The position numbers and the translations under genes are program-made. The notes beneath the pieces were generated by a model that saw only the letters and a program-made list of their open reading frames with translations, was not told the DNA's origin and made no database searches. Positions 9,463-64,000 of a DNA stretch of 64,000 nt are shown piece by piece. Every line of letters begins with the position of its first letter. Positions within the stretch are counted from its first letter, which is position 1. The stretch comes from Microvelia longipes (Eukaryota > Arthropoda > Insecta > Hemiptera > Veliidae), in the NCBI GenBank assembly GCA_018340805.1, contig JACMZG010001911.1, positions 37,025,557 through 37,089,556 of the forward strand. The letters are read 5' to 3'.

Positions 9463-9565
9463 TAGAAGACCTTTCCTATTAATTACATCTTTTTAAAGAA
9501 AATTACGCTGAATCTAATAACTACTTCTATAGTTTTTGATCGGACTGGCCCAGAATCCTGGCAAC

Positions 9566-9845
9566 CATAGAGATATATACTGGAGGGAGCATAGGCTATC
9601 TTAATACATTGAGAGGCCTGAAACCTTTTTAGTGGGGCTCTCAGGGGCTCTGTGTAACCTCATTGAAACCTCCTCTAAGAGGTAGTTTGTTTATCTTGTG
9701 ATTTGTATTTTAAACATTCTACTATATAATTTACTGTTTGTTTGTTCTGTTTATTTGATGATAATGATAATCGAATGTGGTCAGGTTACTTTTTCGATGT
9801 TTCAAAATTCAACCAATAGGGCCCCTCTAGTAATATATCTCTATG
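9566..9845 (+). mobile_element. hAT-like MITE, complete copy with 8-bp TSD
   Basis: A 280-bp non-coding element bounded by inverted ends catagagatatatactgg and its complement ending atatctctatg. It is flanked on both sides by CTGGCAAC, a perfect 8-bp target-site duplication. An 8-bp duplication is the usual signature of hAT-superfamily transposition. Related copies lie at 61448-61907, 61975-62258 and 63152-63469. No transposase is encoded, so it is non-autonomous. Confidence 0.85.
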
Positions 9846-10484
9846 CTGGCAACAGGATTCACTTTTACTTTTCCTCACCTACGAACGTAGGTATGTAAAA
9901 GTGTAAAAAATATAACCCTAAAATATAAAACCCAGGTTTTATTATAACTATCCATTATAGGCACTTTTATGGTTTTATCATTCTGTGCGTTTAACTTCTG
10001 TCTGTGTTCAGCTCTACCTAGTTTGCTGAGTTAATAGTTTAAAAAAAATCGTGAAAAATATGAAATTTAAATTGAAGTTTTACTTAAATCTACATTTCAT
10101 AAGTGAGAAATAGATCTATGGTCTAATTAAGAATTTTTATTTTGTTTTTGATCGCTATTTTGAAAACATTGGCTTTTTAATTTTTAAAATTTGAACTGTC
10201 TTCAAATTCCAAACTTCAAACTATTGTGAAAAAAATGTGATAATTGCTTTAATTTTAGTTTGTAAGTTAGTGTACTGGCTAAAATATTTTTTTTTTCTGA
10301 ACAAAAATATTTTTTATATATTTGTGCAAGAATTAAATATATTGCTAATATTCCTTGAATGGTTTGAAATTAAACAAACTATAGGTATTTTTAATGGTTT
10401 CGTAAACATATGAAAGTAGTTTTTGTACTACATGATTGAATGGCTATCAACTGTATTACTTTTCGCATTAGGTAACTTTACTAT

Positions 10485-10741: not shown

Positions 10742-11107
10742 TCATACTGCAGTAGGGGCAAAAGGGGCATTCTGGCACCTCCTCCACCTCCTCCTCCTCC
10801 TCCACCTCCTCCACCGCCACCACCACCTCCTCCTCCACCGCCTCCTCCTCAAGCATCTCTTTATAGTTTTATATCCCCCCCTCTCTTTTGCTTTGCATAG
10901 TGTAATAACAGTAACATTAAATATGCTTTGCATAAAAATAAATAGGTCCCCACCATATAGGTAGAAGCAGGATGATTTTAGGTGTGAAGTAGTAGACCAC
11001 CCTGGATAAGTGTCTCTCTTAGTAAAAAGCCTTCCCACCACGTCAAGGTGGAGACACATCGGGAAGGTGTACAGTGCCCCGTCCTCGCACTGTACTATGG
11101 CGACCAT
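10742..11107 (-). CDS. Outward-reading ORF inside left TIR (hypothetical)
   Basis: A 121-codon open frame starts with ATG at 11107 and runs toward the tip of the element. It stays open through the last TIR base and stops only in flanking DNA. The first ~80 residues are mixed and end in a stretch rich in K, E and R. The rest is an R/W repeat produced by translating the GGN tract (RRRRWRRRWWW). The same frame exists in the right TIR. I recognise no family. The first part overlaps palindromes, so the DNA may have been kept for structure rather than protein. A genuine protein is doubtful. Confidence 0.3.
   Translation of the reverse strand: MVAIVQCEDGALYTFPMCLHLDVVGRLFTKRDTYPGWSTTSHLKSSCFYLYGGDLFIFMQSIFNVTVITLCKAKERGGYKTIKRCLRRRRWRRRWWWRWRRWRRRRRWRRCQNAPFAPTAV
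10745..10750. repeat. 6-bp target-site duplication, left (TACTGC)
   Basis: TACTGC directly precedes the left tip AGTAGGGGC and recurs directly after the right tip at 15797-15802. Confidence 0.9.
11030..11095 (-). promoter_or_regulatory. Two adjacent stem-loops in left TIR
   Basis: These mirror 15452-15517. One hairpin has 9-bp perfect arms GTACAGTGC/GCACTGTAC with a 9-nt loop. Beside it is a longer hairpin with arms CCTTCCC/GGGAAGG and an inner CCAC/GTGG. They could be a protein-binding or replication structure of the element, or RNA structures in an outward transcript. The function is inferred only from the duplicated, symmetric position. Confidence 0.5.
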
Positions 11108-11264
11108 CCTCTTTAAAAAAATATCGCCTCTATATATTTGTTTTGTATTTTTTTATATTTTTAATTTTTTTGTATTTTTTTATATTTTTAATTTTTTTTT
11201 TTTATATTTTTATATTTTTTCTAACGTATTTACAATTACACTTACATCTCGTTAGCGCCATATA

Positions 11265-11427
11265 GGTTTACGGGACGCTATGCCCACGCCAGTGACCTTA
11301 AAAGATGGAATATTGCGGTTACGGGACGCCATGCCACGCCAGGGACCGCTCTGAGGGTTTACGGGTCGCTATGCCACGCCAGGGACCCTCTATGGGTTTA
11401 CGGGACGCCATGCCACGCCAGGGACCC
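11265..11427 (+). repeat. Four iteron-like direct repeats in left TIR
   Basis: Four copies of a ~33-bp core beginning ggtttacggg, continuing with acgcyatgccacgcc and ending agggacc (agtgacc in the first copy). They start at about 11265, 11316, 11355 and 11394, so the last three are spaced 39 bp. The array is mirrored at 15121-15283. It is GC-rich against an AT-rich background. Iteron arrays near termini often bind replication or transposition proteins, but here that role is inference. Confidence 0.7.
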
Positions 11428-11515
11428 AAATTATGGCACGCTTCGCCATACTAGAGTTCCATCTCGTATTTGCGGCAGCTGCTGAGACATGAGTGTAAGG
11501 CTATTTAACATATGA

Positions 11516-11869
11516 TTAAACTCTAAGAATAAACTCGAAAATAAATCCCACTCTGGTTTTTTTTAAAACAACAAATATTTTATCTTCTTCATTCGAACAA
11601 ATCGGACGAATAATAACTTGACGTCCGTGAAATTTAGGATTAACCAATCTTACTTTTATTAAACCAAATTTTCGACCAAGTTGTACATCTTCTTTTACTA
11701 CGTTTTACAAAATAATTATCAATTTCATTTTTCGCGGATTCAACAACTCAAAATCGGACATGTGAATGTTTACACTTCTTTTACCATGTTCTAATCTCAA
11801 GAAAGCTACACCTTTAACTAAACAAACTAATACCTTTTTACCGTCACTTAGATGGTAAATGGTCGACAT
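11516..11869 (-). pseudogene. Small leftward ORF of the Polinton-like element, one in-frame stop
   Basis: ATG at 11869 opens a 54-codon frame (begins MSTIYHLSDGKK) that meets TAA at 11707-11705. The same frame is then open for a further 62 codons to 11516, running into the left TIR. Composition across the stop is coding-like on both sides (K/R-rich, hydrophobic alternation), which suggests one ~117-residue protein interrupted by a nonsense change. A consensus TATA box and initiator lie just upstream. I do not recognise the family. It lies directly downstream of the capsid-like gene on the same strand. It could be a small virion or DNA-binding protein, but nothing seen decides this. Confidence 0.5.
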
Positions 11870-11879
11870 CTTGCGCAAT

Positions 11880-11914
11880 ACTGATTTATTATTGCTCTGC
11901 TTTCTTTATTTATA
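11880..11914 (-). promoter_or_regulatory. TATA box and initiator of the small leftward ORF
   Basis: TATAAATA occupies 11914-11907 and TCAGT, the arthropod initiator core, lies at 11884-11880. The distance from the first T of TATA to the initiator A is 32 nt, the expected core-promoter spacing. The ATG follows 13 nt after the presumed start site. Confidence 0.65.
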
Positions 11915-11947
11915 CATACCCCCACCCCTCGACCAGACATGTCTATT

Positions 11948-13554
11948 CATGTCATTTTATGCACAATGCTAGTCAGGGGGTTGTACTGAACTAATCTATC
12001 GTGTAACAATAGACAGTACGCGGTAGTATTTGCCGGGAAATCTTTTTCAGATTCAAATTCTAATCTCACATCTACCGGACCCTTTTTGATAGACTCTGAT
12101 TGTTCGAACAATCAATGATTACAACAGGACATTTATTCTTAAAATCTGTAAAGGATACGTACGGTAGACTCTGATAAGTGTTGTAGTACGACGTTTGAAA
12201 CGCCGCGTACATGTGGTATAATAAAGCAAATTTATTTTGGGAGAATTTTAAATTTAAATCATCGTAGGGGAACTCGTGAATTGAGATAAAGCTTGACATT
12301 TGTCAAGTCGCAGTAATCGAAACAACTGGATGCCTTATCGACGACGTTATTTCTACCCTTTTGAAAGGCTAAAATTAAAAATCGCGGTTTCTCGAGTTGA
12401 GTCGAAGTTTTAATCGACCATACTTGTCGGTTTGACGTAGGTAATAGCGGATACTCGTGCATATCCCACGCTCGGAAATGGAGAGAAATTATTTTTTCTG
12501 TTTTTAAATAATTAATTAAATTTAGTTTCTGAACTTCGTTAACCGAAACGTAAGGTATTTTCCAACAAAGCGATAGTAGTTCAATTTTAACTTTCTCGCG
12601 AACTTCTGCCCGTGCATCCGTATCGACGTACGGAACATGTTGTACAAAACAATTTGAATCGTTTCTCGCTCTTACTAAAATTAGCTCTTGCTTTACGTTT
12701 ATCAAAACTTTTCGGTAATCTTCCGCGAATCCTAGTAACGAGGATAAAGGTAGACAGACGTTGTACCGGGTGGATGATTCTTCTTGTACTTCATTGAAGG
12801 GTATTGTCCATCCCATATTTGTTAGAGAATACGATATAGGCGCGTGAGATGCAATCCCTTTTAGAGTCGAAGTCATTCCGGGGTTTCTGACTTTATCAAT
12901 CTCAACTCCACAAATTTCATACCGGATCTCGTCGAATAAAAACGGGAATGCGTTGTTGATGAGTCTGTGCTTCGCCGGTGTCGTATTTCCTCCTTCTTTT
13001 AAAAATGATAGTTCCAAATATATAAAACTTTCACTCGGAAGCGAATAAATGTCTTGGATTTGTACCGGTATCCGTATCTCTTCTCCGGCGTCTAGCTTTG
13101 AGTTTGCGTACGGATAGTGAGTATGATACTCTAGACTCTCTATAGATTCATCATATTCGGGGTGTTCACTTAAATTTAACATCTCTACCATTTTTGGCTC
13201 TTCTATGTCTTTGTTACTTACTACATCATCAATAGGTTCATCCTCCTCATCATCTTCTTCATCCTCCTCCTCATCGTCTTCTTCTTCTTCTTTTCTATCC
13301 TTTTCCGATCCACATACTGCCTCGCTAGAGTTATTATAGTTTTCAATTGACTCATCATGTTTACCTGCAATGGCGTCCTTGTAGAATCCCAACTCTGAAA
13401 CATCTTCGCGTTCAACCCCCTCACAGTGTTTATCTCGTTGGTGTCGAAGTAAATTCTTTTTATGTACAAACTTTTTACAGCAGTCTGGACAATTAAATGT
13501 CAAGTTTTCAAATCTCTTCTTGTAGAGACTCGAATCACGTATCTTGGAGAACAT
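11948..13554 (-). pseudogene. C2H2 zinc finger-capsid-like protein gene, two frameshifts
   Basis: The main frame runs from ATG at 13554 to a stop at 12259 (431 codons). Coding continues in a second frame overlapping at about 12299-12259 and ending by 12072, and then in a third frame to a TGA at 11950-11948. The gene is therefore broken by a frameshift near 12260-12300 and another near 12075-12115. Residues 22-43 form a C2H2 zinc finger (C22, C25, H38, H43; C-X2-C-X12-H-X4-H). Residues 89-110 are almost all Asp/Glu. From about residue 145 on is a beta-rich domain with motifs such as FLFDEIRYEICGVEID and LLGFAEDYRK. It resembles, from memory, a family of uncharacterised arthropod proteins found in transposon-like settings. 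In Polintons the expected large structural protein is a double-jelly-roll capsid, and I infer that role here. It would form a shell around element DNA. The frameshifts are real damage or assembly indels. Confidence 0.6.
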
Positions 13555-13576
13555 CTCTGCTCGGTGTCTGGCTCAA

Positions 13577-13612
13577 TACTAAAGTTGGAGCTCCACTAGC
13601 TCTATATATATA
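13577..13612 (-). promoter_or_regulatory. TATA box and initiator-like site of the capsid-like gene
   Basis: A TATATATATAG run spans 13612-13602 on the minus strand. TTAGTA, a variant initiator, has its A at 13580, 32 nt from the first T. The register within the alternating run is ambiguous. ATG follows about 26 nt downstream. Confidence 0.5.
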
Positions 13613-13693
13613 CTAAACGAAAGCTAAAACACCGCTAAAGCGGCTTCAACAACTCCAGTTATACCCATATTAGCTACAACACAACACCAAATG

Positions 13694-14394
13694 TGCTCGT
13701 ATAGGCTCTGCGATAGTTCATATTGGCTCCACATCGGCTCTAAATGGCTCATATAGGCTCCACACCGGCTCTAAATGGCTCATATAGGCTCCTACTCGGC
13801 TCCAAATAGCTCATACTCGGCTCTAAATGGCTCCACTCTGGCTCCAAATGGCTCATATAGGCTCCACTCCGGCTCTAAATGGCTCATATAGGCTCTAAAT
13901 CGGCTCATATAGGCTCTGCGATAGCTCATATAGGCTCTAAATGGCTCCAAATGGCTCATATAGGCTCCTACTTGGCTCCAACACGGCTCCAAATCGGCTC
14001 ATATTGGCTCCAACATGGCTCATATAGGCTCCAAATGGCTCATACTCGGCTCTAAATGGCTCATATAGGCTCCACACACCGGCTCCAAATGACTCATATA
14101 GGCTCCAACTCGGCTCCAAATCGGCTCATATAGGCTCCACACCGGCTCTAAATGGCTCCACTCCGGCTCTAAATGGCTCATATAGGCTCCAAAGTGGCTC
14201 TAAATGGTTCATATAGGCTCCAACACGGCTCTGCGATAGCTCATATAGGCTCCACACCGGCTCTAAATGGCTCATATAGGCTCCAAAGCGGCTCTAAATG
14301 GCTCATATAGGCTCCAAAGTGGCTCTAATTGGCTCATATAGGCTCCCTACTCGGCTCATATAGGCTCAAAATAGGCACCTACTCGGCTCCAACA
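13694..14394 (+). repeat. GGCTC minisatellite with ~10-11 bp periodicity
   Basis: About 700 bp consist of subunits of 10-11 bp each beginning GGCTC, mainly GGCTCATATA, GGCTCTAAAT and GGCTCCA(A/C)A followed by CC, CGG or similar. They are often combined into a ~31-bp trio. The array lies between the divergent start sites of the capsid-like gene and the rightward gene. Translated runs such as GAYMSHLEP are by-products. The spacing equals about one DNA helical turn, so the GGCTC boxes would fall on one face of the helix. Confidence 0.9.
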
Positions 14395-14401
14395 AGATGA
14401 A

Positions 14402-14437
14402 TATATAAGTTTATGATTTAAGGGGATATGATCAGTT
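14402..14437 (+). promoter_or_regulatory. TATA box and initiator of the rightward gene
   Basis: TATATAAG at 14402-14409 and TCAGTT at 14432-14437, with 32 nt from the first T to the initiator A. This is the same spacing as at 11914/11882. The ATG at 14463 follows 29 nt after the presumed start site. Confidence 0.7.
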
Positions 14438-14462
14438 GTATCTCGGCTTCCGTGCTGTCAAG

Positions 14463-14987
14463 ATGCCTTCTACCGCTATTATAGATATTCAAGGGTTTGT
14501 AGATAATGAGGGGCAAGTCATCGTTAAAGAGCTCGCATGTTTGGACCTGGAGACGAAATCGTCTTCGAGCTGGTTATTTTTACCACCTGCAAATTACATT
14601 CAAGATTCTAAATCTATGAAAACAAATTCTTGGCTTACATTAAATTTTCACGGAATAAACTGGGATGACGGTGATGTTGAGTACGAGCGATTGTATTTAG
14701 TGTTTAAACTTTTATCTAATCGGTACACACACTTTGTCGTTAAAGGTAAAGTACGTTTATTGAAAAAATACTTGCCAAATAATTGCGTCATTATAGATTT
14801 ACTTGCGATAGAATGTCCCAAAATTAGTTCATTGAGTTATAGCTGGAGGCCCTGGCTCCTTCATAAGAATAATAAAAAATTTGCTTGCGCTCAGGCTCGA
14901 GTATGGAGTTTGTATAAATGGCTCGTAAACGGACCTGCACTCGGTTTGACCATAAATTTACTACCGATTTCATGTGTAGCCACGTGA
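14463..14987 (+). CDS. Unrecognised protein of the Polinton-like element, possible RNase H-fold/exonuclease relative
   Basis: I chose the ATG at 14463 (174 codons). The frame is open from 14436, but only with a non-ATG start lying on the presumed transcription start. The protein opens with STAIIDIQGFVDNEG and VKELACLDL, then has THFVVKGKVRLLKKYL and VIIDLLAIECPKISSL, and ends near a Cys-containing CAQARVWSLYKWL. This order (a D-containing strand, a later lysine-rich helix, then an IIDLL strand) is faintly like DEDD exonucleases, but the acidic set is incomplete. From memory, similar unnamed proteins occur in other arthropod genomes. It is transcribed away from the capsid-like gene across the minisatellite. 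The last ~25 codons change character and an overlapping frame opens at 14918, so the 3' end may be frameshifted. The function is not established. Confidence 0.6.
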   Translation: MPSTAIIDIQGFVDNEGQVIVKELACLDLETKSSSSWLFLPPANYIQDSKSMKTNSWLTLNFHGINWDDGDVEYERLYLVFKLLSNRYTHFVVKGKVRLLKKYLPNNCVIIDLLAIECPKISSLSYSWRPWLLHKNNKKFACAQARVWSLYKWLVNGPALGLTINLLPISCVAT

Positions 14988-15120
14988 GTTTCATTTGTAA
15001 GGATTTATTTTCGAGTTTATTCTTAGAGTTTAATCATATGTTAAATAGCCTTACACTCATGTCTCAGCAGCTGCCGCAAATACGAGATGGAACTCTAGTA
15101 TGGCGAAGCGTGCCATAATT

Positions 15121-15283
15121 GGGTCCCTGGCGTGGCATGGCGTCCCGTAAACCCATAGAGGGTCCCTGGCGTGGCATAGCGACCCGTAAACCCTCAGAGC
15201 GGTCCCTGGCGTGGCATGGCGTCCCGTAAACCGCAATATTCCATCTTTTAAGGTCACTGGCGTGGCATAGCGTCCCGTAAACC
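15121..15283 (-). repeat. Four iteron-like repeats in right TIR
   Basis: Mirror image of 11265-11427; on this strand each copy reads ggtccctggcgtggca, then tagcg/tggcg, then acccgtaaacc or cccgtaaacc. Confidence 0.7.
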
Positions 15284-15410
15284 TATATGGCGCTAACGAG
15301 ATGTAGTGTAATTGTAAATACGTTAGAAAAAATATAAAAATACAAAAAAAAATTAAAAATATAAAAAAATACAAAAAAAATTAAAAATATAAAAAAATAC
15401 AAAAAAAAAA

Positions 15411-15417
15411 TATATAG
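15411..15417 (+). promoter_or_regulatory. TATA-like box ahead of the outward TIR ORF
   Basis: TATATAG lies 29 nt before the ATG at 15440 and 41 nt before the stem-loop. No good initiator is seen at the expected distance, so outward transcription is only a possibility. The mirror copy is present in the left TIR. Confidence 0.3.
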
Positions 15418-15439
15418 AGGCGATATTTTTTTAAAGAGG

Positions 15440-15805
15440 ATGGTCGCCATAGTACAGTGCGAGGACGGGGCACTGTACACCTTCCCGATGTGTCTCCACC
15501 TTGACGTGGTGGGAAGGCTTTTTACTAAGAGAGACACTTATCCAGGGTGGTCTACTACTTCACACCTAAAATCATCCTGCTTCTACCTATATGGTGGGGA
15601 CCTATTTATTTTTATGCAAAGCATATTTAATGTTACTGTTATTACACTATGCAAAGCAAAAGAGAGGGGGGGATATAAAACTATAAAGAGATGCTTGAGG
15701 AGGAGGCGGTGGAGGAGGAGGTGGTGGTGGCGGTGGAGGAGGTGGAGGAGGAGGAGGAGGTGGAGGAGGTGCCAGAATGCCCCTTTTGCCCCTACTTACT
15801 GCTAA
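15440..15805 (+). CDS. Outward-reading ORF inside right TIR (hypothetical)
   Basis: It encodes the same 119 residues as the left TIR frame up to the element tip, after which the flanks differ (ending AV left, YC right). An overlapping frame from 15691 reads through the GGN tract as a Glu/Val-rich stretch followed by PECPFCPY. Protein-level identity of the two copies mirrors DNA identity and is not evidence of selection. I recognise no family. Confidence 0.3.
   Translation: MVAIVQCEDGALYTFPMCLHLDVVGRLFTKRDTYPGWSTTSHLKSSCFYLYGGDLFIFMQSIFNVTVITLCKAKERGGYKTIKRCLRRRRWRRRWWWRWRRWRRRRRWRRCQNAPFAPTYC
15452..15517 (+). promoter_or_regulatory. Two adjacent stem-loops in right TIR
   Basis: Arms GTACAGTGC (15452-15460) and GCACTGTAC (15470-15478) pair perfectly around a 9-nt loop. 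CCTTCCC (15480-15486) pairs with GGGAAGG (15511-15517), with an inner CCAC/GTGG at 15496-15499/15506-15509. They lie about 280-345 bp from the element end. Confidence 0.55.
15690..15770 (+). repeat. GGN-rich tract near right tip
   Basis: About 80 bp of GGA/GGT/GGC triplets, G-rich on the strand leading to the tip at both ends of the element. It could form two-tier G-quadruplexes. Confidence 0.85.
15797..15802. repeat. 6-bp target-site duplication, right (TACTGC)
   Basis: Perfect match to 10745-10750. Confidence 0.9.
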
Positions 15806-23931: not shown

Positions 23932-25189
23932 ATTACGGCACTCCACAGCTCAATTCAACCATTTATTATTATTATTTCTTGCAGACAAATTAATAAGTAA
24001 TATATTTTTGAACCTACGTAAACCGATTAAATGGTTTTCTAAATTGCCAACATTTTCCTTAGATTAGACTTTTAAAATTAAAATAAGATTTATAATTTTG
24101 TTTATTTTTGATATTTCAATCTACACATTTTTTTATTCTAAAACTTCGAGTTTATTACAGGCTCTTATTTTAGAATTGAAAAAAAAAACATTTTAACCTG
24201 TCATCAAGCCACTTGGTTTATTCCGTGTAGTCTTGTTAGTTTTTTTTTCTTTACCTTAGACATTTAAAACAAATTTTTAATACCAATTTACATAATTTAT
24301 GGTTTTATTTCTCAGAGCAATCTCTAATATGAACTTGATTTTGTTACACCTGAATTTAGATGGCTCAAATTGCGAATGCTTAGTATTGGTATTAAACCTT
24401 TGTTTTCTTAGTTCACTTTAAATTAATAGAAAAGAGAAATAAATGTTGGATATCTTGCCTCGCGTTGAATCGACTCTTTTTAAACTTGCCGAAGAAACAT
24501 CAAGACTGTCATCGCTGGAGGCTGTTGACTTCATCATTGGAAAGTGCTTTTTTTATTACTTTGAAAAAATGTTTTTAGTTGTTCAATGTAGTTTCAGAAT
24601 TAAAAAAAATGAACTAATCATAAAAGTATTCTCCATACAGTTATTTTGATTTTGTGTTTTTAAAAATAGAATAGATTTTTTAATATTTTTCGTCGAAGTG
24701 TTTTTTTGTAGTATTAAATATCAGATGTTAAAAAGAAATATGTTCTAGAGTATATTATTACATTTTTGTAGTTTTAACATAACTGGATTTCTGTTAAAGA
24801 TTTTAGTGTCCTAACTACGCTTGAACTAAATTTAAATTTTATCTGTTGAATTATCTGTCATAAATTTTATTATCTGTCATAAGTATAGTGTTCAATCATG
24901 CTTTAAGTAGTAATCAGCATTACATTAAAGAGAAAGGATTACGGGACCAATATCAATATTTAGGTCCATAGCGACACTTTAAACTGAGAATAAAGTGTTA
25001 TGTTATATTTATTGAAAAGGGTTAAACTTTTCAAGATTATCTTATGCAAAATTCATCAAGTTTAGAAATGTGACAGTGCTATGGTTAGGCTCTATTATCT
25101 TTGTTTCAAGAAAGCTTACTCAACTGCTCTAAAATGTGTGAACTTAAAGTATGATATTATTTATAGAATAGATAAAAAAAACTATAGAA

Positions 25190-25545
25190 TAGAATATTAT
25201 TGTGGCTATTTTTTCATAGAATAGAATTTATTGTCATATGAATAAATATTGTGATATCCTAATTGTAGACTAGGTAAATAATTGTGATTCAACTTTAAGT
25301 AGAATAGAAAATATTGTGGATATTTTTCATAGAATAGAATTTATTGTCATATGATAAATATTGTGATATCCTAATTGTAGACTAGGTAAATAATTGTGAT
25401 TCAACTTTGAGTAGAATAGAAAATATTGTGGCTATTTTTTCATAGAATAGAATTTATTGTCATACGAATAAATATTGTGATATCTTAATTGTAGTCTAAG
25501 TAAATAATTGTGATAAAACTTTTGGTAGAATAGAAAATATTGTGA
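25190..25545 (+). repeat. Tandem repeat, ~113-bp unit, three copies
   Basis: The marker catagaatagaatttattg recurs at 25215, 25328 and 25441, with matching sequence between. Degenerate tagaatag motifs continue to about 25800. Confidence 0.9.
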
Positions 25546-27406
25546 TCAATATTTAATTAAATAGAACATAAGATTTATTTAGAATAGGTCATAAAATTTA
25601 TTGTAGAATAGAATTATTTACTTGTGATTTGTGATAAAATTGAATTAGGATAGAAAATATTTTTAATAACTTAAAGTTTAGAATAATAATTTTTACCAAA
25701 TAACTTGTTTTTAGTATAGAAAACATTGTGATTTCAAAGTGTTTTTTTGTTTAGAATAGACATATTAAATGTGAATTTTGTTTGGTTTTAGAATAGAATA
25801 TTTAATGTTTTCAAAACTAAATTTTTATTATAATTATTAAATTGTTTTTTTTTATTTATAAATTATATCTGCGTAAACATGTTGGAATTTTAAAGTAATT
25901 ATTATGAAAAGGGTATATAATAGCGAACTATTGGTCTATAGTTTTGTGTAACTATTGGTCCATACTTTTGTTAACTATTGGTGAAACTTTGGTGTATGAC
26001 TTTAATAAAAATGATCAAAAAATCTGGTCAGGACTTTAAAAGGAATGCCGTAGTACATACGGTCTTGCATTTTTTGGTGAGATTGTTAACTTAAGTTTGT
26101 TTGATTCAGCATTTTAAACTGAGCCTCTTGATGTACCCTTTTCCTTTGTGTTAAACAATTATTTTTACTGTGAAACTTAATTTTAGTTCTATCTTTTACT
26201 TTAATGTTATTTCTTTAAAGTTTTTTTTAAACAACATTTTAACATAGATATTAGTAATTGGGTTTATTAGTTAGGTGCGTGTGCGTCTGTTTCTGTGTGA
26301 TTTTATTTTATTACTATTAATTTCTTTATTAATTTTTATTTAGTCTTTTAGCCTTATCCTTCGTACTTCCTTTCCAGTTTTTATTTATTAAATTTAATTA
26401 TAGTTATAATTAGAATAGAAATTAGTTTATTATATTTTAAGTTAAGAGATAGCGATTAGAAGTGGGTTTTATTGTAGTTATGTTTAATCAATATAGTTAT
26501 GTTTAACGTTAAAATTATTGCATTAAACTTTAGTAATTTACTAGAACTTAAGATTTTTAAATAACTTTCACTTTTAACTATTAATTTTTGTAGAAATGCA
26601 ATAATTTTATCTTTACAACTTAAATGACGAATTCTTAAAGAAAACGATTACGACAATATAGTTGTTGTTTCATAAAAATCAATCTTTAAGAATTCATTTT
26701 GTTGACTTAATAATTTATTTTCATTAGTTAATATTTTGAAAGTCATTCATTTTGAATTTCATTATTTTTATAATCAATGAATAAATTATTATTTTAAAAT
26801 TATTATTTCAAACATAATTACGAACAATGAATAATAGTGATTTAAATATATTAAGTTAAAAATTAGTCACCATAAATCGCCTTTCTATATAAAAAAATAA
26901 CTACATGTGTAGATTTTTTTAACATTTTAGTCAAATTTATTTGCTTTGGATTATTTACAGTTATATGCACATCACTGTATCATTTGATTGTTGATGAATA
27001 TTAATTTTTGAAAGTAAATTATTATTTTTTTATTTTATTTTATTTAGAAGTAGGGTAAAAACTGAAAAAGAAAATATCTTTTTACTAAAAGATAAATATA
27101 ATAATGAATCGATTTATTCATTATGGAGTTTTCCATTTATTTTAATAAATTTATAACAATTAAAAGTCACATTAAGTTTGGAAGTCAGACTTATTTATTT
27201 CTTACTTTCAAGACATCAAAATGCAGGACGTTTACATATCTGTTTTATGACTTCCTTACTAAGTTTTCCTTTTGTTTTATTTTCTTAAGCATATTTTTCT
27301 CTGTTTATTGTTATGTAAAAGGATATTTTCATTATTATTTTTGAAAAAGATAATGTTCCACCATAATAATATGTCCGGTAGATATTTTTCTTGTTCTTTT
27401 TTACAG

Positions 27407-60925: not shown

Positions 60926-61447
60926 GTTTCTTTTTAATATCCTAAGTTTATATAAGTTCCTTGAATAAAGTCGATTTAAGGAACTTAAATCTACACACTT
61001 AGTCGATTTGCCATATAACATGGTAATCCCATTGAGCATAAAAAATAGAGAGAAATCAAACACAAATTTAAAAAAAAAACTGCACGTACTTTATACGAAG
61101 TGTGCAGGCTTGCAATCAAAACATTAACTGTGCAGGTCCTAAATTTAAAGGCAAACTTACTCCCGATGGTTTCCTGTTGTTTTATTAATTGGTTATAAGG
61201 AATGGTAAAAAGTAATATATTTTCTTTTTATAACTGTTGTATTTTAATTGACTTGACGAGCACCAGAAGTAACTAAAATCACGACACGAACGGCAAGCAC
61301 AGAGGAAAGTTGAGGAGTACACTCGATTTATCCTAGTTACATAACCTGCGTTTCGTGCTTTTTTGCTGTAACCATGGGAGGTAGGTTTGCTCTTATTTTT
61401 CTATCTCACATACAACGTTTAAGGGCTTAAAAAAGTTAAGCGTCATC

Positions 61448-61907
61448 CGTAGAGATATTTTACTAGAGGGGCTCTATTCGTTGAATTTTTAACATTAAAA
61501 AAATAACCTGACTATGAAAGACTATCAATATAATCAAATAAACAGAACAAAGTTGTGACTTATTAAGTGTGAACAAAGTGACTTAGAAGAAGTCTCTCCA
61601 CAAAATAAAATTTTATTGGCAAAGCCCTTTCAACCTAATGAGAAGCCATCATCATTAATTATAATGGACTCCATTCACGCTCACTCTAAGGATATATTTT
61701 GTTGAAGGTTAAAAATACAAATCAAAACACAAACCATGTGCAGAAAGCCGAAAACAATTGATTTAATATAACCTTAACTCACTCTTAAAAGGAGTTTTAA
61801 TGAGGTTACACAGAGCCCCTGAGAGCCCTAAAATGATGTTTAAGCATAGCCTATCTCATAATGTACTGAGATAGGCTAGGCCCTCTTAATACACACATAT
61901 CTCTATG
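61448..61907 (-). mobile_element. hAT-like MITE, longer copy in reverse orientation
   Basis: Left end cgtagagatattttactaga and right end acacatatctctatg are inverted relatives of the ends at 9566-9845. Flanks are GCGTCATC and GCGCCATC, an 8-bp duplication with one change. The interior, read on the minus strand, shares the ggggctctgtgtaacctcat and gagtgagttaaggtt segments of the other copies. Non-coding. Confidence 0.75.
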
Positions 61908-61908
61908 G

Positions 61909-62452
61909 CGCCATCCCCTTTATTGAGAAACCTTGTTGTAACCTCATCGTAAACTTATCCAATAGTGTTTTAAGCATAGAGATATATACTATAGTGGGCA
62001 AAGCCTATCTCAATAGGCTTGAAAGCATCCTTCATTGAAACATCCTTCAAGAGTGAGTTAAGGTTGTAATTAATAAATTTATTTCGGTTTCCCGCACATT
62101 GTTTGTGTTTTGATTTGCATTTTTATCGTTCTACTATATCAGTTATTGTAATTTTGTACTGATTATTTGATTATATTTATAAGCGAAGGTGGTCAGGTTA
62201 CTTTTTAGATGTTTCAAAATTTAACCTATACGGCCCCTCTAGTAATAATATCTCTATGGTTTTAAGGTTCTAATAAATCAATCGTTGTCAGCTTTTCGCG
62301 CATTGATAATGTTTTGTTTACTGTGTTGGAGATACTGTGATTTTTTACTGTTTGATTGTATTAATAATCGAAGGTGTTCAGATTGATATTCCGATGTTTC
62401 GAAATTCAACCAATAGCACCTCTCTAGTTTTAAAGTCTCTATGGAATTTAGT
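61909..62452 (+). mobile_element. Older hAT-like MITE copy split by a nested insertion
   Basis: The left piece before 61975 keeps a diverged tgtaacctcat segment. The right piece after 62258 keeps ttttaaggttctaataaatc, cgatgtttcgaaattcaacc and an end ctctagttttaaagtctcta. The younger copy at 61975-62258 interrupts it. The left boundary is uncertain. Confidence 0.55.
61975..62258 (+). mobile_element. hAT-like MITE, complete nested copy with perfect TSD
   Basis: Ends catagagatatatactatag and ctagtaataatatctctatg. Flanked by GTTTTAAG on both sides (61967-61974 and 62259-62266), a perfect 8-bp duplication. It is inserted within an older copy of its own family. Confidence 0.85.
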
Positions 62453-63151
62453 CGTCTCGCTTAGTGCCACTAAACATCCTGATAATGGTATATTTATTAG
62501 TAATTCTATTAACATCATCGATTAGTTTCCCGACTTTTTTAACAATCTGTAGTTTTTACGTTCGTTTTCGCAATAATATGCCGTGATAAAATTTAACAAA
62601 AAACTCACGAAGTAAGTGTTATAATTATTAAATATTAATTTAATATTTAATTATAAGTAATAAATAAGATTTGATACATAATTTTGTCTAATAAAATTGA
62701 CAAAATAATTTTGTGAGAGACGCCTAGAAACGAAACAGAGTAAATGACTTTCGTCATCAATAATGACGAATCTCGAATGATGGAACAGTTCCCAGATGTA
62801 GCTTAGCGTTTGCTTGTTACATTTCCCCGGTGCCTCTAGCACAATTATTTTGGGTCAATTAGTCATATTTTGAAAACTTAGTAGTATGGAATTATATGGT
62901 CTTCAACTTTTTAGATTAACCTTTTAGGAAGATTATACAAATATTTTAAAGATTCATGAATTAGATTTGTATAATTATATACATTTTATGTAATATTTAT
63001 ACTGAGTGTAACATTGAATGTTCTAATAATATTGTAATTATAATATTATTTGACACATATATTAACAATCTAGTTATCATTGGATCATTTGAGCTTGACC
63101 ATTGTAGACTTCCGATTTTAACCTTTCTCTAAGGTCAAATATAGATACAAC

Positions 63152-63469
63152 CATAGAGATATATTCTAGAGGGCATGGCCTATCTCATTACATTAAGAGT
63201 CCTGAAACATCTTTTTGGGGCTCTTAGGGGCTCTTTGTAACCTCATTAAAACCTCTTCTATAGAGTGTGAAAGAGTGAGTTAAGGTTATAATATATTAAT
63301 TGTTTTCGTCTTCCCTCAAATTTTTGTGTTTTGATTTGTATTTTAAACGTTCTACTGTGTAAGAGTCTGTATTTTTTCAGTTTATTTGATTATCTTGATT
63401 GTCGAAGGTGTTCTTTTTCGATGTTTCAAAACTCAACCACAAGGGCCCCTTTAGTAATGTATCTCTATG
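63152..63469 (+). mobile_element. hAT-like MITE copy
   Basis: Ends catagagatatattctagag and ttagtaatgtatctctatg. Flanks GATACAAC and GATGCAAC form an 8-bp duplication with one change. Short open frames inside it recur in the other copies and are not genes. Confidence 0.8.
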
Positions 63470-64000
63470 GATGCAACTGTATGTTTAAAGTAATATTTAT
63501 ATCATTAGTTTTATATTATTTATATTATATAATATTATAAATGATATAAATTTATCATTTATATCATCCAGTACGGATGATATAATGATATTGTAAGTAT
63601 AATATTCTTTGGCAGATAAGTAAACTATCTAGTTAGGTTAGAATCGAGTCATAAGGCATCGTGTAATAGGCTTTTGGTCTGGTCAAGGATCTTGAATAAA
63701 GGGCATTGAATATAAGGGAACTTCACTGACCCCATGAACGTCGTATGAGTTATAGCGAAATGAAGGAAAGGGTATGTAACAAGGATAATACGAATTTAAC
63801 ATATATTAACATTTTAGGGCAAAGTTTGATGAAACGAAGTCGTAACAAACAAAATAAAGTATATTACTTTTACTATTTGTTTATAATCTACAATAGGAAA
63901 GTTTTGACGGAAATTAAGTTAGCATCTGCCTCTAACTTTAAGACCTACACAGTTAATGAATTATTGTAAACATGTACAGTTTTTTACGTATGTTTTGTGA
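63470..64000. other. AT-rich DNA, nothing recognised
   Basis: Includes an imperfect atgatataaa/tttatatcat palindrome near 63541-63570. No gene is supported. Confidence 0.5.

Follow-up and report, generated by a model that had tools for sequence, protein, structure and literature searches.

A multicopy satellite-type Polinton carrying a capsid gene in the genome of the hemipteran Microvelia longipes

A 64-kb stretch of the Microvelia longipes genome (assembly GCA_018340805.1, contig JACMZG010001911.1, positions 37,025,557 to 37,089,556 of the forward strand; hereafter the window, 64,000 nucleotides in full) contains one complete mobile element at 10751-15796, 5,046 bp long and with TACTGC on either side. 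By its structure and relations, which are firm, it is a multicopy, satellite-type Polinton with a capsid gene. It is very probably one copy of a non-autonomous family that is moved by the enzymes of helper Polintons and that keeps a capsid gene together with a private gene. The element and the helpers of the same genome have in common their tips, their terminal inverted repeats (TIRs), a small gene and the capsid gene; private to the 5-kb class, and unmatched in the helper loci examined, are a zinc-finger extension of the capsid open reading frame (ORF), a minisatellite and a gene here called p174. In the mechanism that we propose, a helper's protein-primed DNA polymerase B (PolB) would copy the element from the shared TIRs, and its rve integrase would insert the copy, leaving the same 6-bp duplications. 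p174 and the capsid gene would be retained because their products favour the element's own propagation, probably through packaging or through competition for helper functions.

Structure and genes of the element

The preliminary description had reported a complete 5,046-bp element with TIRs of about 797 bp, 5'-AG tips and a perfect 6-bp TACTGC duplication, all of which held. The left TIR (10751-11548, plus strand; tip AGTAGGGGC), homologous to the TIRs of helper Polintons, aligns with the right TIR (15001-15796, minus strand) at a 98.5% match over 802 columns with 2 mismatches, giving a length of ~798 bp, and the outermost 389 bases are identical and gap-free. The two copies of TACTGC (10745-10750 and 15797-15802) abut the AG..CT termini exactly; two random 6-mers from the window would agree by chance about once in 1,000. 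Subterminal 39-bp direct repeats lie within the left TIR at 11265-11427, with a mirror at about 15121-15283. The element has 41% G+C vs 27-28% in its flanks, and blastn of the element against the remaining window gave no match at E 1e-3. Tips of 5'-AG are a hallmark of Polintons, also called Mavericks. Passages of one report give 6-bp duplications for Polintons and likewise for IS3EU and GingerRoot, the termini of the latter two being TA..TA or TG..CA (PMC10045372). An IS3EU or GingerRoot identity was ruled out, as the element has AG..CT tips vs their TA..TA or occasional TG..CA. Duplications of 6 bp are described, in passages of another report, as typical of rve integrases, with polinton-like viruses at 14-40 kb (PMC12220804).

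The genes form two transcription units that point away from a GGCTC-rich minisatellite (13663-14394) between them. The minus-strand unit consists of the small gene beside the left TIR, the double-jelly-roll (DJR) gene and the in-frame zinc-finger stretch, and the plus-strand unit is p174, beside the right TIR.

The capsid-like gene claimed for the element is real, but its copy in the window is broken at two places. The capsid ORF matches Pfam PF21738 (DJR-like_dom) at E 7.9e-68, and the domain goes on in two further minus-strand frames, at 12075-12299 (E 9.6e-18) and 11950-12111 (E 1.1e-14); since the domain is spread over three frames, the gene must have two frame breaks. The DJR major-capsid-type gene, its start set by comparison with relatives, occupies 11947-13191 (minus strand), and a DJR capsid fold is predicted for its product through P0001, a relative 85% identical. 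PDB matches of the first capsid ORF were dismissed as zinc-finger and low-complexity matches, and a PHROGs search gave nothing useful. The best structural matches include BFVD R9XLG5, a Cotesia sesamiae bracovirus protein, which has the top sequence identity (16%) among the 50 matches listed. Another PF21738 capsid-type protein, P0073, is filed under a metagenome-assembled genome of Hodgkinia cicadicola; the symbiont assembly probably contains insect DNA.

Upstream of the capsid gene and continuous with its reading frame, at 13192-13554 (minus strand), are a C2H2 zinc finger and an acidic stretch; Pfam scores the finger at 0.018, below its cut-off, and the motif is plain by eye. The small ORF of the preliminary description is present at 11705-11878 (minus strand), with the correction that the same frame stays open past one stop. 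The small gene thus spans 11549-11878 (minus strand), is interrupted by that stop in the window copy, and is homologous to a 150-residue ORF in locus L008 and a 159-residue ORF in locus L024 (see below). The gene that had been listed as unknown was recovered as an intact ORF of 174 codons, p174 (14463-14987, plus strand). In Pfam p174 gives only DUF6577 at 0.051, below its cut-off, it has no match in PDB, and a single-sequence fold prediction was uninformative (pLDDT 30). The protein may bear a likeness to an uncharacterised protein family of insects, whose members could be RNase-H-like nucleases.

Elsewhere in the window, dispersed repeats of ~100-340 bp, in both orientations, are common to 61447-63477 and 9562-9853, and a short tandem array with copies ~90% alike lies at 25185-25566.

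The 5-kb class and its probable helpers in the same genome

Searches were made over the window's own assembly (664.6 Mb). A TIR search gave 492 first-look candidates, the best 40 of which were scored, and stretches were fetched around the 20 best. Fifteen of these 20 loci belong to the 5-kb class (L002, L003, L005, L006, L007, L009, L011, L012, L014, L015 and L017-L021), and the other five, whose TIRs are related, are Polintons of the helper type or, in one case, a derivative. Every one of the fifteen has matches to the minisatellite and to 341-346 of the 346 bases of the zinc-finger block, and fourteen match p174 over its length. L021, the one without p174, has two DJR regions in inverted orientation (an inverted duplication). 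A search for the 29-base tip with up to 6 edits located both ends of 11 elements, the window's included, and ten of them have exact 6-bp duplications, all different (L018 has none). Nine of the ten, among them the window's, are of the 5-kb class and measure 4,851-5,952 bp; the remaining one is L004, at 8,212 bp. The zinc-finger block has 116 candidates genome-wide; all 40 scored match at 96-100%, and in 35 of them a p174 match lies within 2.5 kb. Among the matches listed for p174, at least 21, including the window's, extend over at least 168 residues at 94-100% identity and are stop-free. The many copies of about 5 kb with 6-bp duplications that the preliminary description had named as support were thus found (nine elements with both tips and an exact duplication, 4.85-5.95 kb), and a one-off internal deletion of an ordinary Polinton, which it had set against its own reading, is ruled out because the private block recurs in fifteen other loci of the 5-kb class. 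No relatives were found in IMG/VR or in prokaryote genome contigs; a 19-base tip match in IMG/VR, within an unrelated coding-like stretch, was taken as chance.

The same genome also has Polintons whose tips and capsid gene are those of the element and whose TIRs are related to its own. The left ~2.4 kb of the element (10751-13208) aligns at 94-95% with L008, L010, L013 and L016, the alignment beginning at 10778 in L013 and L016 and ending at 13195 in L013. Helper homology stops just upstream of the DJR start, and the window continues into the zinc finger, the minisatellite and p174. Past the DJR gene the helpers have, in order, a protease-like ORF, an rve integrase, a 167-residue ORF, an A32-like ATPase and a DNA polymerase B. 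In L010, Pfam identifies the integrase (rve, 2.4e-12) and the polymerase (1.9e-24), with a chromodomain-like end on the integrase (4.5e-4) and Pox_A32 for the ATPase (0.0014) each below its cut-off; the protease-like ORF has no Pfam match, and its putative assignment comes from position and motifs only. Genes of L008, L013 and L016 were matched to those of L010 by tblastn, and L013 and part of L016 are decayed. L016 continues into L023; the element so joined measures ~11.1 kb between its tips and is flanked by ATGAGG at each end. Among the matches listed in a search of the genome for the integrase, six have at least 96% identity over at least 289 residues with no internal stop. The helper-type Polinton bodies of L022 and L008 are close neighbours in the same orientation, the L022 body being far more decayed. 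L004 is an 8.2-kb fold-back of two inverted helper ends (TIR, small gene, DJR, and pieces of protease and integrase) with an exact 6-bp duplication; therefore plain defective helper derivatives also get inserted.

These relations bear on what kind of element this is. The suggestion that it consists of an independent virion-like module fails, since it carries the capsid gene of the helper (94-95% across the 2.4 kb in common), and the alternative of an undescribed, unrelated group of small virus-like transposons is unsupported, as the TIRs belong to PolB- and rve-bearing Polintons of the same genome; this also rules out an unrelated transposase superfamily. The idea of a satellite of full Polintons is supported by the shared tips, TIRs and capsid gene, and the borrowing of enzymes is what we infer from them. 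It is highly improbable that the element is autonomous, a small virus-like transposon whose transposase or replicase, p174 for instance, has gone unrecognised: p174 is conserved and apparently private to the 5-kb class, but it has only 174 residues and no convincing Pfam or PDB match, and the tips, TIRs and 6-bp duplications are those of the PolB/rve Polintons beside which the class lives.

The enzyme-bearing and p174-bearing classes are separate as far as the searches reach. As the preliminary description had it, the element has no visible polymerase or integrase: tblastn with six helper proteins (E 1e-6) found none of them in the 64-kb window or in the fifteen 5-kb loci. The zinc-finger block, the minisatellite and p174 had no match in the fetched stretches, some of which read N, of L004, L008, L010, L013, L016, L022 and L023. 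Around the 38 scored TIR matches outside the window element, p174 lies within 6 kb in 23, integrase in 10, both in none and neither in 5. The 150 p174 matches listed represent at least 120 places, and none of these has an integrase match within 20 kb, vs 85 integrase places among the matches listed; only 17 of those 85 reach 76% identity or more.

That p174 places so far outnumber close integrase matches, and that the zinc-finger block is class-specific and in frame with the capsid ORF, would also suit an interfering satellite, in which a zinc-finger-tagged capsid and p174 counter the helper through poisoned capsids or template competition, making the family partly a Polinton suppressor. Such a reading overlaps with the one that we prefer, but high copy number is expected of any short non-autonomous element and the zinc-finger block is without significant constraint (see below), and we consider it decidedly unlikely.

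Probable selection, probable capsid-gene exchange and a possible second lineage

Variants were counted separately according to whether they were shared by at least two copies or confined to a single copy, and were treated as independent though the copies are related. In p174 (15 copies mapped), shared variants are 21 silent to 7 replacement (ratio 0.09), vs 11 silent to 41 replacement plus 5 nonsense for single-copy variants (ratio 1.01; Fisher p = 3.8e-6). The shared variants are silent-biased and the single-copy ones neutral, and therefore copies appear to decay neutrally after insertion while the lineages that multiplied kept p174; p174 was probably under selection while the 5-kb class multiplied. 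For the DJR gene in the 5-kb class (15 copies) the shared counts are 44:20 (ratio 0.13) and the single-copy counts 37:37 plus 5 nonsense (ratio 0.28; Fisher p 0.037), and in the helper-type set (7 copies) they are 19:4 and 29:10 plus 1 nonsense.

A tree of the DJR sequences has little depth. Of its seven helper-type sequences, six (L004 twice, L008, L010, L013 and L022) cluster together (0.990) in a group nested among the 5-kb copies, and L016 pairs instead with L002, a 5-kb copy (0.975). Thirteen near-fixed differences (at least 80% in either class) separate helpers from the 5-kb class, all within the first 19 codons and so beside the private block, those in codons 1-4 being perhaps an alignment effect at the gene edge. 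The pattern is consistent with helper and satellite having recombined, or undergone conversion, along most of the DJR gene except near the private block, and the satellite's capsid gene probably exchanges sequence with that of the helper. Given such exchange, DJR constraint alone is no proof that the satellite uses its own capsid.

A rival reading is that of a passive deletion or recombination derivative, moved in trans via its TIRs and with its genes as baggage, in which capsid constraint came from helper gene conversion and p174 constraint from an unseen, full-length, p174-bearing source. In its favour are the left 2.4 kb of helper sequence, the nesting of helper among 5-kb DJR sequences, the confinement of class differences to codons 1-19, the many broken copies, and the insertion of the defective L004 with an exact duplication. 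Against it, a single private block occurs in 15 of 15 5-kb loci, with p174 in 14; the shared variants of p174 are strongly silent-biased whereas its single-copy variants are neutral; not one of the at least 120 p174 places lies near an integrase match, among the matches listed; and the diverged p174 relative of L024 gives dN 0.24 with dS beyond estimation (see below). A passive derivative is unlikely on this evidence.

The L024 relative is an intact gene of 178 codons, 64% identical to p174 (dN 0.24, with dS beyond estimation), with no Pfam match. It lies downstream of the DJR region and overlaps, on the same strand, the beginning of a small gene of 159 codons that is likewise intact. The DJR region of L024 is 94.5% identical to the window's, and its TIR is a distant version. 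The diverged p174 and small gene beside that DJR region (L024:4134-6607) make this locus a mosaic, or reflect capsid-gene exchange between Polinton lineages. Neither integrase nor polymerase was found within the 10 kb examined, part of which reads N, and L024 could represent either an earlier satellite lineage or a piece of a Polinton that went unseen. A stronger version of the satellite reading, which we hold as a tentative possibility, would make the family a true satellite virus of a Polinton: the zinc-finger-tagged capsid and p174 would package its own short genome selectively, the helper would give PolB, integrase, ATPase and protease, and L024 would represent an earlier lineage of such satellites. 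If so, satellite Polintons would be a long-lived class.

Several points weigh against our preferred reading, a satellite family moved by helpers. Mobilisation by the helper and packaging are inferred. Only 5 of 16 copies (the window, L003, L005, L015 and L018) have an uninterrupted frame from the zinc finger into the DJR gene, and the zinc-finger block (16 copies) has no significant constraint (shared 3:8, p 0.30; single-copy 10:34, p 0.23). The capsid gene is broken in the window copy, L006 and L018 have truncated versions of it, and several other copies are fragmented; its constraint within the 5-kb class could be due to sequence exchanged with helpers. Sequence searches with p174 gave no named relative among 28 and 19 candidates. 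On the helper side, the integrase matches of L016 and L013 carry stops and no helper was seen intact throughout; the TIRs of the L016/L023 element match over only ~220 columns; and the far ends of L010 and L013 lay outside the comparison, parts of the helper stretches reading N. The 20 fetched stretches are a non-random set, chosen as closest to the window TIR, and the genome-wide place counts are lower bounds because only the best candidates were scored (150 of 331 for p174 and 126 of 1,361 for integrase).

Known systems and significance

Virophages of the mavirus type have polymerase and integrase genes of their own. In strict satellite viruses, as in the capsid-forming satellites of phages (cfPICI), a capsid gene is retained and replication is borrowed from a helper. 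With virophages such as mavirus and Sputnik the element has the DJR capsid fold and, apparently, helper dependence in common; unlike those of the mavirus type it lacks a polymerase and an integrase, and its apparent helper is a Polinton. From strict satellite viruses and cfPICI it differs in being a eukaryotic genomic transposon with the helper's own capsid gene and with packaging that is presumptive. Polintons themselves it resembles in its AG tips, 6-bp duplication, long TIRs and DJR major capsid gene, and in a left 2.4 kb that is 94-95% identical to Polintons of the same genome. It differs in size, 5 kb vs ~11 kb for the helper measured or the 15-20 kb given in passages of a Polinton study (PMC4028283), and in lacking PolB, integrase, ATPase and protease while having the private zinc-finger block and p174. 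The gene set described there comprises PolB, an rve integrase, an ATPase, a protease and a DJR capsid protein, some Polintons being without the capsid module (PMC4028283), and Spodoptera Mavericks are described, in passages of another study, as having a parvovirus-like protein and no DJR protein (PMC5803895). These, like the element, are partial Polinton gene sets, but the Spodoptera Mavericks, as there described, keep integrase and PolB and lack the DJR capsid, and the element is the reverse. No comparable satellite Polinton was recognised in the open-licence literature, as judged by titles, the starts of abstracts and some passages.

Insect proteins labelled 'uncharacterized' or 'double jelly roll-like domain' gain a genomic setting here, beside a Polinton protease-like ORF and integrase. 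The view of Polintons as transposons and viruses at once is based mostly on their gene content. A family that lacks replication and integration genes, yet has a capsid gene and a private gene that was probably selected, is an internal natural experiment on that view: if capsid products matter for the spread of the 5-kb family, Polinton capsids act in animals today.

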